64,000 bases of DNA, from contig NZ_SHMP01000003.1 in assembly GCF_004217335.1 (NCBI RefSeq), positions 186,001 through 250,000 on the forward strand, given 5' to 3'. Below the pieces are notes generated by a model. The model did no database searches. It was not told the origin of the DNA and saw nothing but the letters and a program-made list of their open reading frames with translations. Below, piece by piece: positions 36,704-49,401 of this stretch. Numbering within the stretch: position 1 is the first letter of the stretch; the number at the start of each line of letters is the position of its first letter. The position numbers were made by a program, and so were the translations under genes. This DNA is from Natrinema hispanicum (GTDB taxonomy: Archaea > Halobacteriota > Halobacteria > Halobacteriales > Natrialbaceae).

Positions 36704-36754
36704 CGCGGATACCGACTCGGTGGTTTTGTAACGGCTCCTGCCTCAGTGTCGACC

Positions 36755-37654
36755 ATGCAAACACACATCGTCCCGGTCGGCTTCGATTACGACCGGCTGA
36801 TCGCGCCGCTCGTGCGCGACCAGATCGACGTCGACAGCGTCATTTTGCTCGAGGGAGCCGTCGGCAGCGAGGCCAACGTCGAGTACTCCCGGCACCTCTC
36901 GAAGAAACTCGAGACGGACTTCCGGAACCTGCTGGGAGCCGAAACCGAGCGGTTCGTCTTAGAGGACGTCTACGACTACGACGAGGCGTTCGAGCAGGCC
37001 TACGAGCTTATCACCGCTGAACTCGACGCCGGCAACGAGGTCTGGGTCAACGTCGCCGCGATGCCCCGGACTGTCAGCTTCGCCTTCGCCAACGCCGCCC
37101 ACTCGCTGATGGTCGAACGCGAGGAAGACCGCGAGGGCATCCACACCTATTACACTGCCCCGGAGAAGTACTTAGAGACCGAACTCGCCGAGGAACTGCG
37201 CGAACAGATCGCCTTGCTCGAGGACCTTCGAGAAGACAACGACGGGATCGAAGACGATCGGATCGGGAGCCGCCTCGAGAGCGCCCGCGATCTGCTCGCC
37301 GAGTTCGACGAACGCGGGACGACCATTGGTGCAAAGGAAATCGACGGCAAACACATCGTCGAGTTGCCGGTTGCATCCTTCTCTAACGTCAAGCCGTTCG
37401 AGGAACTGATCCTGTACAAACTCGGCGAGGGCGGCGAGTTCGACTCCGTCTCGGAACTCGCCGAATCGCTGGCGCGTGAACTCAACGAGGAGTATACCGA
37501 CAGTTTCCGGTCGAAGGTCATCTACAACGTCGACCGGCTGGGCCCCGGCGGCAAAGGGTACATCGAGCGCGAGGAACACGGCAAGTCCTACCGGACCAGA
37601 CTGTCCCGGATCGGCGAATTGTGGGTGCGGGCTCACTCCGACGGCGACGCCTGA
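36755..37654 (+). CDS. HFX_2341-family (DUF6293) CARF-like/wHTH regulator
   Basis: 299 residues from the ATG at 36755 (a GTG at 36746 is an alternative). The N-terminal ~130 residues look like a CARF-type Rossmann fold: MQTHIVPVGFDYDRLIAPLV, then a loop motif VWVNVAAMPRTVSFAFANAA (residues 97-115) where CARF proteins have their ligand-binding N-x-T-G-G-T. A coiled linker (residues ~135-185) leads to a C-terminal winged helix with ELILYKLGEGGEFDSVSELA and YTDSFRSKVIYNVDRLGPGG. No CRISPR or cas gene is near. The stop codon TGA begins a repeat element. Confidence 0.82.
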   Translation: MQTHIVPVGFDYDRLIAPLVRDQIDVDSVILLEGAVGSEANVEYSRHLSKKLETDFRNLLGAETERFVLEDVYDYDEAFEQAYELITAELDAGNEVWVNVAAMPRTVSFAFANAAHSLMVEREEDREGIHTYYTAPEKYLETELAEELREQIALLEDLREDNDGIEDDRIGSRLESARDLLAEFDERGTTIGAKEIDGKHIVELPVASFSNVKPFEELILYKLGEGGEFDSVSELAESLARELNEEYTDSFRSKVIYNVDRLGPGGKGYIEREEHGKSYRTRLSRIGELWVRAHSDGDA

Positions 37655-45974: not shown

Positions 45975-46190
45975 GCCGATTCCTTTCAAGACGGCAGTCA
46001 AAAAGGTAGCGAACGAAGACGACGCACAGTGTCAACTCGCCAGCACCGCGAGACCGTATCGGCCACCGATAGCGATCTCCTGTCTGTCTGTCTGATCACG
46101 ATCAATACCGCCTCGAGCCCGGTATTCGATTCGGTTCCAGTGATCGGGGCTCGCGTGGAAGCAGTGAGAAAACAGCAATGTGGCGTCGTG

Positions 46191-46276
46191 GACGGCGGAG
46201 TGCTGTCAGTCAGTGCCGCTATGGCCGCCGGACGGCTTGCCGTCGCGCCGGCAACCCGCGACAGCAAGGCGTCTCA
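46191..46276 (-). repeat. Intergenic inverted-repeat element, copy 4 (diverged)
   Basis: A divergent copy: GACGGCGGAGTGCTGTCAG at one edge and GACAGCAAGGCGTCTCA at the other keep the family flanks, but the middle is rearranged with G/C-rich hairpins. It is just downstream of the chemotaxis transducer gene. Confidence 0.5.
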
Positions 46277-46296
46277 GCGACCGGCGATCGACTCGA

Positions 46297-49200
46297 TTAC
46301 TCGTCGTCGGTCGTCCCGAACGTGAACACGTCGTCGCTTTCTGTCGTGTCGTCCGCGTCGTCATCCGACGCGTCGTCGTTGTCGAGGACATCGTCATCGG
46401 CGTCCTCGCCGTTTTCGTCGTCTGTCTCCTCATCGACTGGTTCAAGCGGTTGTGCGGTTCCATCGTCGCCACCAGCCGACTCGCCGTCGACTGGTCCGAG
46501 CGGTTGTGCAGTTGCGTCGTCGGCATCTGACTCGTCGAAATCGTCGTCGACTGGTCCGAGCGGCTGCGCAATTGCGTCGTCGGTATCTGACTCGTCGAGA
46601 TCGTCATCGACTGGCCCGAGCGGCTGCGCAGTTGCGTCGTCGGTATCATCCTCAGCCGTCGATTCGAACGCGTCGTCCGTGTCGTCGCTGTCGGCGTCGA
46701 GTTCAGCCAGCGGGTCAGCGTCGTCCGCAAGTGAGTCTGCCGCGTCGTCACCAGCGGTGTCGGCATCACCAGCCGACTCGAGGGAATTATCGTCAGTATC
46801 GGGGCTCTCGTCCGATTCGATGCCGAGGATCTCGTCGGCATCCAGCTCGTCGGCGTCGTCTGCGGGCCCCATCTCGAGTGCGTCCTCGGGGCTAGCTTCG
46901 TCTGTGGTATCAGCAGCTGGCATGTTCTCGAGCGCGTCCGTCGCCGACGCGCCGGTATCGGTTGTGTCGCCGTCCGACTCGCGGTCGGTGGCTTCGAGGG
47001 TGAGACCGCCAGTCTGGTCGCCGAGCCCAGTCTCGTCAGCGCCGAACGACGCGTCGGACACTGACAGCTCCGCGTCGACGTCGAACGTCGACTCGAAGTC
47101 GACCTCGTCGGTGTCGATGTCGGTGTCGAACTTATCGAGTGCCTCGGAGAGCTGTGCGGCCTGCTCGGAGAGCGTCGAGGCGGATTCCGTGACCTCAGTG
47201 AGTGCGGTGGTCTGCTGTTCGGCCGCGGCAGCGACGTTCTCGGCTTCCGCGGTAGTCTCCTCGGAGATCGTCGCCGCGTTATCGACCATCGCGACGACCT
47301 CCTGGGTCGAGGCTGCCTGCTCTTCGGTGGCTGCGGAGATTTCCTGGACGCCGATGTTGGTCTCCTGGGCGAGGTCAGCGATCTCCTCGAGTGCTTCGAC
47401 GGCTTCCTGAACCTGTTCGGTTGCGTCTTCGATGTCCGCGCTCGTGCCCTCGACTTCGGCGGCGGACTGTTCGGTGCGTTCGCGGATCGCCTCGAGGCGG
47501 TCCTCGGCCTCGTCGGCCGCCTGTGCGACGTCCTCGGAGAGGGCCTTGACTTCCTTTGCGACGACGGAGAACCCTTCGTCGTCGCTGCCGCTTGCGGATC
47601 GGGAGGCCTCGATGTTGGCGTTCAGCGCCAGCATGTTCGTCTGGCGAGCGATCTCAGAAATCGTGTTGATCAGCTCGTCGATCTGCTGGACCTCTTCTTC
47701 GAGGCGGCGCATCTCGGCAACGGCGTCGCCGGCCTCGGATTCGATCTCGTCCATGGCGGTGATCGCCGTCTGAGCGGCTTCCTTCCCTTCCTGTCCGGTG
47801 TTGACGGTCCGTTCGGCGATGTCGGCCACCTCGTTCGAGGAGGCGGCGATCTCCTCGGTCGTCGTCGAGAGACCGCTCATCTCCTGATTGACCGACTGCA
47901 GCGACTCGTTCTGGCGATCCGCGCCGTCGGAAATCTCCTGGACCGAGCCGGTAACCTGCTCGGATGCAGAGCGGACTTCCTCGCTCGAGGCGGTCACCTG
48001 CTCGGAGGCGGTCGCGACATCGGTCGCGAACCGGCTGAGCTCGGCGATGGTCAGCTCGATCTCGTCGAGCATCTCGTTGATGTCCTCGCCGATCTGTTGC
48101 ATCTGCTCGTTGTCGCTGTCGACCGTCGCGCGGGCGGTGAGATCACCGTCGGCAGCCTTGCCCATGACCGTCGAGTACTCGGTGACCTTGTCCTCGAGGT
48201 GGCTGTTGATCTCCGCGGCACGTTTGCGCTCGCGTTCCGCCTCCTCGCGTGCGGTTTCGGTTTCGCTGATCTGCTCGCGTAGTTCGTCACGCATCGAATC
48301 GAAGCCATCGTAGAGGCGGCCGACGTTGTCGATCCGGTTGGTCTCGAGGTCGACGTCGAGGTTGCCTTCTTCCATCTGGCTGGCCTTGTCGGCGAGTCGG
48401 CCGATCGAGACGGCCGTGTTCCGGCCGAGGACGGCACCGACCATGCCGATCAGGAGGACGGCGAAGAGCGTCGCGTAGATCCCGTATTCGTTGATCGTGG
48501 TGACGAACCCGAACGCCTGGCTGGCGGGTTCGTGGGTCACGACGACCCAGTCGGTCCCGACGACACGGGCCGAACTGGTGACGTACTCGTCGTCCGTGAA
48601 GTCGTAGGCGTCGGTCTCGAAGGTCAGCGACGAACTATCGATCCGCCGTGTCGTCGCACCCTCGGTCCGTGCAGCGGTCAGCAGGCTGGTGTCGCCACCG
48701 TATGCCTGTCCGAGCGTTTCGTGGTTCTCACCGTAGCCCACGTCGTCGAGCATCACCTCGTTGTCGCCGTTGAGGACCATCGTCGTGGTTCCGTTGTCGC
48801 TCTCGAGGTCGTTCGCGTACGCCTCGAGGTCAGCGGTGTAGATGATCGCCCGGTCTTCGTTTGCAGCCGAGCGCTGGACGTAGGAGATGACGGTGCGGTT
48901 CTGGCCGGCCTCGCTCTCGGCGAGGGAGGTATCCGACACCCACGGAGCGGTCTGGGTCGCGTTTGTGTACGCGCTTTCGGGGATGTTCTCGAGGTCGGCC
49001 GTCGACGCACCGCGGAACGCGTCGGTGGTGCTTGCGGTGACCGTCCCGGCGTTTAGATCGACGTACGAGATGTCGAACGTGTCGTTGTCGAGATGTTCCT
49101 CCCAGTCAAGGAACTGCTGTTCGATCGCCGCGGGATCGTCACTGGCAACGACGTTCGATCTGGCGATCATCTCGACCGTGTGTTCGTTCTGCGAGTTCCA

Positions 49201-49401
49201 CATCTGCAGGCTCTGGGCTTCCTGCTCGGTAGCGGACTCGTGGTCGGTCTCGACCTGATCTTCCATCTGGTTCGTGATCTCTGCGGTGGCGGCGTACCCG
49301 ACCAATCCGACGGACAATATGAGTATCAGTAACGCGACCGCGAACTTGATCGCGTACCTGCGTCGGATGGCCGCTGGCACCAGCCGTCGAGCGAAATCCA
49401 T
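46297..49401 (-). CDS. Methyl-accepting chemotaxis transducer with acidic repeat tail
   Basis: 1034 residues. TM1 is at ~18-38, an extracellular sensor (dCache-like) region at ~40-300, TM2 at ~306-325, a HAMP domain at ~326-380, then a signalling domain with the conserved hairpin tip ARQTNMLALNANIEASR near 585. The last ~250 residues are extremely acidic low-complexity sequence, ending in 20-residue units with TAQPLGPVD; the DNA there (46491-46650) repeats every 60 bp. It senses an unknown ligand and signals to CheA, which is not in the window. Confidence 0.9.
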   Translation of the reverse strand: MDFARRLVPAAIRRRYAIKFAVALLILILSVGLVGYAATAEITNQMEDQVETDHESATEQEAQSLQMWNSQNEHTVEMIARSNVVASDDPAAIEQQFLDWEEHLDNDTFDISYVDLNAGTVTASTTDAFRGASTADLENIPESAYTNATQTAPWVSDTSLAESEAGQNRTVISYVQRSAANEDRAIIYTADLEAYANDLESDNGTTTMVLNGDNEVMLDDVGYGENHETLGQAYGGDTSLLTAARTEGATTRRIDSSSLTFETDAYDFTDDEYVTSSARVVGTDWVVVTHEPASQAFGFVTTINEYGIYATLFAVLLIGMVGAVLGRNTAVSIGRLADKASQMEEGNLDVDLETNRIDNVGRLYDGFDSMRDELREQISETETAREEAERERKRAAEINSHLEDKVTEYSTVMGKAADGDLTARATVDSDNEQMQQIGEDINEMLDEIELTIAELSRFATDVATASEQVTASSEEVRSASEQVTGSVQEISDGADRQNESLQSVNQEMSGLSTTTEEIAASSNEVADIAERTVNTGQEGKEAAQTAITAMDEIESEAGDAVAEMRRLEEEVQQIDELINTISEIARQTNMLALNANIEASRSASGSDDEGFSVVAKEVKALSEDVAQAADEAEDRLEAIRERTEQSAAEVEGTSADIEDATEQVQEAVEALEEIADLAQETNIGVQEISAATEEQAASTQEVVAMVDNAATISEETTAEAENVAAAAEQQTTALTEVTESASTLSEQAAQLSEALDKFDTDIDTDEVDFESTFDVDAELSVSDASFGADETGLGDQTGGLTLEATDRESDGDTTDTGASATDALENMPAADTTDEASPEDALEMGPADDADELDADEILGIESDESPDTDDNSLESAGDADTAGDDAADSLADDADPLAELDADSDDTDDAFESTAEDDTDDATAQPLGPVDDDLDESDTDDAIAQPLGPVDDDFDESDADDATAQPLGPVDGESAGGDDGTAQPLEPVDEETDDENGEDADDDVLDNDDASDDDADDTTESDDVFTFGTTDDE
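46491..46650 (-). repeat. 60-bp tandem repeat inside the transducer gene
   Basis: Units at 46491-46550, 46551-46610 and 46611-46650 (partial) begin CTGGTCCGAGCGG or CTGGCCCGAGCGG at exact 60-bp steps. The first two differ at 6 of 60 positions. A fourth diverged unit starts near 46434. The period is a multiple of three, so copy changes keep the frame. Confidence 0.75.

Follow-up and report, generated by a model that had tools for sequence, protein, structure and literature searches.

The window, i.e. the whole 64 kb stretch of DNA analysed here, contains in its middle part an open reading frame of 299 amino acids, which begins with ATG at position 36755 of the forward strand and whose stop codon ends at 37654. 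Because orthologues at 79-100% identity use the same ATG, we regard this frame as a genuine gene, and in the nearest named relatives, Natrinema hispanicum and N. limicola, the protein is 100% identical. The gene is set among housekeeping genes. Upstream are an SSF symporter and the DUF3311 protein that accompanies it, with a small DUF7860 protein directly before the gene; downstream follow a gene of the valyl-tRNA-synthetase type (class I I/L/M/V synthetase family) and one of the PdxS type (SOR/SNZ). Among 80 related loci, dnaG, valS, pdxS and the symporter-DUF3311 pair are found repeatedly in the neighbourhood, at varying distances. No neighbour is constant across these 80 loci, and we propose neither a conserved operon partner nor a functional one. 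The spacing between the ATG and a TATA-like element upstream of it (Table 1) fits the leaderless type of transcript known from haloarchaea. Inverted repeats around this element, considered as a possible autoregulatory operator, occur in 13 of 65 distinct upstream regions compared with a mean of 13.6 in shuffled controls; palindromes are thus no commoner than in the controls, and no operator is claimed.

Table 1. Features of the regulator gene and its promoter region, with window positions and the evidence for each
Feature	Position	Strand	Evidence
TATA-like element TTTTGTAA, 31-24 nt upstream of the start codon (putative function)	36724..36731	+	columns -29/-28 conserved in 80 loci
HFX_2341-family (Crr) CARF-wHTH regulator, 299 aa	36755..37654	+	NF051475, Pfam, PADLOC CARF3
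CARF-like N-terminal domain, residues 1-140, β1-α1-β2-α2-β3-α3-β4-α4-β5	36755..37174	+	PF19810, AlphaFold2, Foldseek
β1-α1 pocket loop, residues 4-18, including V8-G9-F10-D11	36764..36808	+	conservation; Csa3 motif from PMC8844856
β4-α4 pocket loop N99-V-A-A-M103-P104-R105	37049..37069	+	hhalign; invariant N, M, P, R
Strand β5 with the loop after it, residues 129-147 (IHTYYTAPEKYLETELAEE region), third element of the pocket with high conservation	37139..37195	+	conservation
DUF7776, residues 140-210, two long helices joining the sensor to the DNA-binding domain	37172..37384	+	PF24989; AlphaFold2
Winged helix-turn-helix, residues 206-295	37370..37639	+	AlphaFold2; weak profile matches to PDB winged-helix proteins
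Putative recognition helix, residues 249-262 (DSFRSKVIYNVDRL), almost unchanged throughout Halobacteria	37499..37540	+	AlphaFold2 and conservation

The identity of the protein is established by several family models. NCBIfam NF051475, the 'HFX_2341 family transcriptional regulator', gives a full-length equivalog match (578.2 bits over residues 1-296; curated cut-off 500 bits), and the Pfam families HFX_2341_N (PF19810) and DUF7776 (PF24989, E 2.3e-34) cover residues 3-139 and 140-210, respectively. Likewise, the PADLOC model PDLC01846 (CARF3--CARF), which represents a catalogued CARF clade, matches over the full length (E 8.6e-161). The Csa3 model TIGR01884 reaches 15.1 bits (E 0.011, residues 5-100 only) and remains below its curated cut-off of 60.2 bits. 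The window gene is therefore an orthologue of HFX_2341/Crr, which regulates transcription globally, mainly by repression, and is conserved across Halobacteria. The orthologue of Haloferax mediterranei was studied in 2024 by Turgeman-Grott et al. as the global repressor 'crr': its deletion shifts the expression of many genes, including transport and metabolic genes, and its over-expression lowers cas transcripts, with strong repression of the cas genes, although the expression changes may be indirect according to the authors (PMC11434293). Compared with this protein the window protein shows the same architecture and no difference of substance, being likewise a class-wide, vertically inherited gene away from CRISPR. 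The family is named and catalogued, and the same authors had already noted its HHpred similarity to Csa3a and its occurrence in species devoid of CRISPR, and had proposed cyclic oligoadenylate or c-di-AMP as a possible signal (PMC11434293); the finding made from the window is therefore mainly a correct rediscovery.

The initial annotation had described a solitary protein with a CARF-like domain followed by a winged helix, and the predicted structure agrees with it in both parts. An AlphaFold2 model built from 59 sequences of the window and the related loci (mean pLDDT 84, pTM 0.63) displays strands and helices alternating through residue 134 in a Rossmann/CARF arrangement, then the two long helices of DUF7776 (residues 141-161 and 167-186) and finally winged-helix strands and helices at residues 214-295. 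When the model is compared with the whole PDB by Foldseek, the best matches are CARF proteins, namely Csa3 with bound cA4 (6wxq) in first place, apo Csa3 (2wte), Csm6, ring nucleases and Cam1. Over the whole chain, TM-scores to Csa3 reach only 0.36-0.54, since at this pTM the placement of the domains relative to each other is uncertain, whereas the CARF part alone aligns to Cam1 with TM 0.53-0.65 over about 140 columns. A single-sequence search of the PDB found no match, and profile searches of the PDB yielded only winged-helix and weak CARF matches. The modelled chain thus combines a CARF-type Rossmann fold with a winged helix. CARF folds are common to the window protein and to Cam1, Csm6 and Crn1-type ring nucleases, which differ from it by other output domains and all act within type III CRISPR signalling.

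Csa3a of Saccharolobus solfataricus (PDB 2WTE, 6W11, 6WXQ) likewise combines CARF and winged helix, and its pocket has been studied by mutagenesis. In Csa3, cA4 is bound by motif 1, Phi8-G9-F10-(N/D)11-X-zeta13-F14, and motif 2, pi94-(pi/Phi)95-G96-Phi97-R98, and binding is abolished by G96A or R98A (PMC8844856). The motif VPVGFDYDRLIAPLV at residues 6-20 of the window protein contains V8-G9-F10-D11-Y12-D13-R14, which matches motif 1 except for F14, replaced by arginine. The motif VNVAAMPRTVSFAFANAA at residues 98-115 contains A101-A102-M103-P104-R105, in which the arginine of motif 2 is kept and the glycine is replaced by Met103. The assignment of Met103 to the position of Gly96 follows from an hhalign comparison with a Csa3-like protein, in which NVAAMPRTVS is paired with NVTGGTKVQS, and from the spacing between the asparagine and the basic residue, which equals that of the general CARF β4-α4 motif (D/N)-X-(S/T)-X3-(R/K) (PMC8844856). 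N99 and R105 fit this general motif, while its third position, residue 101, is alanine in the window protein and serine in about half of the orthologues (38 of 81). The initial annotation had considered the chemistry of this loop to be different. This is true of the glycine, on which the change centres, but the loop is less foreign than suggested, since Asn, Arg and the G-F-(N/D) of Csa3 are kept. Further differences from Csa3a are the additional DUF7776 helices, the location outside any cas locus and the score below the Csa3 family cut-off.

The altered loop is itself strongly conserved. All 81 close orthologues share N99, A102, M103, P104 and R105. The first set of 80 orthologues comprised the best-scoring ones and thus under-represents divergent members, and deeper members were therefore added from nine further genomes. 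Even copies that have diverged to 41-63% identity retain N, M, P and R; the loop of the family reads N-x-[SA]-A-M-P-R. Conservation peaks in the three pocket loops (mean majority 0.95 versus 0.82 for the whole protein), a value reached by no circular shift, and Phe10, Asp11, Arg14, Asn99 and Arg105 are among the conserved pocket residues; the putative recognition helix attains 0.94. The new detail added here concerns this pocket: conservation is highest in its loops, yet the glycine that Csa3 requires for cA4 appears in them as an invariant methionine. Given the mutant data for Csa3, we infer from the conserved loops and the loss of the glycine that the pocket is under strong constraint and yet not built to hold cA4 in the manner of Csa3. 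The comparison argues against cA4 as the ligand and singles out F10, R14, N99, M103 and R105. A strongly diverged copy (41% identity; G336, L177:1489-2394, plus strand) was also noted, which keeps the M-P-R-T loop (NISSMPRTVAF) and is the sole NF051475 match of its genome, below the cut-off.

The position of the gene outside CRISPR, as described in the initial annotation, is borne out on a larger scale. The 64 kb window showed no CRISPR-like array, and searches for Cas1 and the Cas10 palm domain in the whole genome to which it belongs gave no match. Of 341 Halobacteria genomes, 330 contain a match to NF051475 (326 over the cut-off), 115 contain Cas1, and a single one contains the Cas10 palm domain; as the Cas10 model is not strict and also matched in a control genome (E. 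coli), the near absence of Cas10 from Halobacteria is the more convincing. Genomes without Cas1 do keep the gene: they make up 216 of the 330 that carry the regulator. The regulator is thus independent of CRISPR. The family is missing from 11 genomes, eight of them in one genus; Cas1 occurs in one of these 11 and in 114 of the 330 others (Fisher p 0.11, a value that ignores relatedness), from which we conclude nothing. Since nearly all Halobacteria genomes carry the regulator and almost none the cOA synthase Cas10, a product of Cas10 is unlikely to be its ligand. These numbers also bear on the idea that the protein is a Csa3-like CRISPR regulator still responding to cyclic tetra-adenylate. Its domain order and fold are as in Csa3, motif 1 (G-F-D) and the arginine of motif 2 are kept, and cas genes are repressed upon over-expression in H. 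mediterranei (PMC11434293); nevertheless, with methionine at the Gly96 position, a Csa3 score of 15 versus 60.2 bits, Cas10 restricted to one genome other than that of the window, and the gene kept in so many genomes devoid of Cas1, we consider this idea extremely improbable.

The sole Cas10-bearing genome (G338; L193, G338:C15:19000-38900) possesses a CRISPR array, csm/RAMP genes, a Csx1-CARF-like gene and cas6. Past the cas6 end of this csm locus, at a distance of about 6 kb, lies a DUF6293 paralogue of the regulator, which is not counted as a member of the locus because Cdc48, LarC-type and RadA-like genes intervene. DUF6293 proteins (PF19810 and PF22665) share the N-terminal CARF-like family with the window protein (profile-profile probability 98.9%), but are only about 22% identical to it, lack DUF7776 and have a winged helix of a different family. 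Unlike the window protein they mostly keep the loop glycine (NVSSGSK, NVSGAGT), and methanogen-type members have the loop NMSAxGR. The window's own genome also encodes such a paralogue (L001:1075-1941, minus strand; G000:C1:1086027-1086452), composed of HFX_2341_N and a DUF6293_C winged helix, with the loop NVSGAGT; its structure model, run for comparison, gave the same class of PDB matches as the window protein. Hence two CARF-type regulators whose pockets differ coexist in this genome.

The analysis thus shows the family identity, the CARF fold, the conservation of pocket and recognition helix, the independence of CRISPR and the loss of the glycine. On this basis we think it probable that the protein is a dimeric, ligand-gated CARF-wHTH global regulator whose signal is endogenous and nucleotide-like, and is not cA4 bound in the Csa3 way. 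The two CARF-like domains of a presumed dimer would enclose a twofold pocket, a conformational change would be passed on through the two helices of DUF7776, and the winged helix would bind promoters with an affinity that depends on a small molecule made by the cell, most likely a metabolite of the adenine-nucleotide type. Alternatively, the frozen pocket could reflect dimerisation instead of ligand binding: the CARF-like domain would then be a dimerisation or protein-binding platform, no longer sensing anything, of a global regulator that acts constitutively and is controlled through its amount. This would be in keeping with the replacement by Met-Pro of the glycine needed for binding cOA phosphates, and with the importance of protein amount in H. 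mediterranei, where over-expression strongly represses cas genes (PMC11434293). On the other hand, the three pocket loops outdo the rest of the protein in conservation, probably more than a plain dimer interface needs, and we hold a sensor-free regulator to be unlikely, though not negligible.

If the regulator is ligand-gated, as we favour, c-di-AMP is one candidate. Made by DacZ, it would fill the twofold CARF pocket and thereby alter the repression of transport and osmotic genes. H. volcanii makes c-di-AMP and cannot do without it (PMC6741144), it has been suggested as a signal (PMC11434293), and its synthase, the diadenylate cyclase domain, is as universal as the regulator, being present in 340 of the 341 Halobacteria genomes. 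A twofold-symmetric dinucleotide would also suit a twofold-symmetric pocket. Since both genes are near-universal, however, their co-occurrence is nearly uninformative, and all 11 genomes without the regulator keep the cyclase. Moreover, no CARF domain is known to bind c-di-AMP, and a c-di-AMP receptor seems a slim prospect to us. The wider proposal that a whole archaeal class uses a CARF domain, a module otherwise familiar from CRISPR signalling, to sense a housekeeping nucleotide signal such as c-di-AMP, in a pocket rebuilt by a fixed change of Gly to Met-Pro, is put forward as quite unlikely; if true, it would represent an archaeal second-messenger transcription factor and CARF sensing outside of defence. 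Identification of the ligand would show what a CARF domain senses without type III CRISPR, and would provide a defined link from signal to transcription for haloarchaea.

The intergenic space beside the gene turns over quickly. A Natrinema hispanicum locus (L033, 5135-6000), which encodes the identical protein, carries directly upstream an unrelated sequence of about 870 bp that includes an extra gene; its match to the window (36704-36754) breaks at the ATG. A putative transposable element has been described at the H. mediterranei locus (PMC11434293). A promoter block of the ACTTGAGGGGATTAATAAACGTCCCCACGGAGTATAGCGT type, about 50-65 nt upstream of the start, is common to orthologues from Natrinema, Halostella, Halorussus and Haloferax (L052, L071, L088 and L109; 81-91% identical), close relatives of which carry other sequences at this place; nine exact matches to the block of these four genera were found in viral contigs. 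Elsewhere in the window, four tandem copies of a 60-nt unit at 46427-46660 overlap open reading frames of both strands, 46178-47410 (plus) and 46297-49401 (minus).
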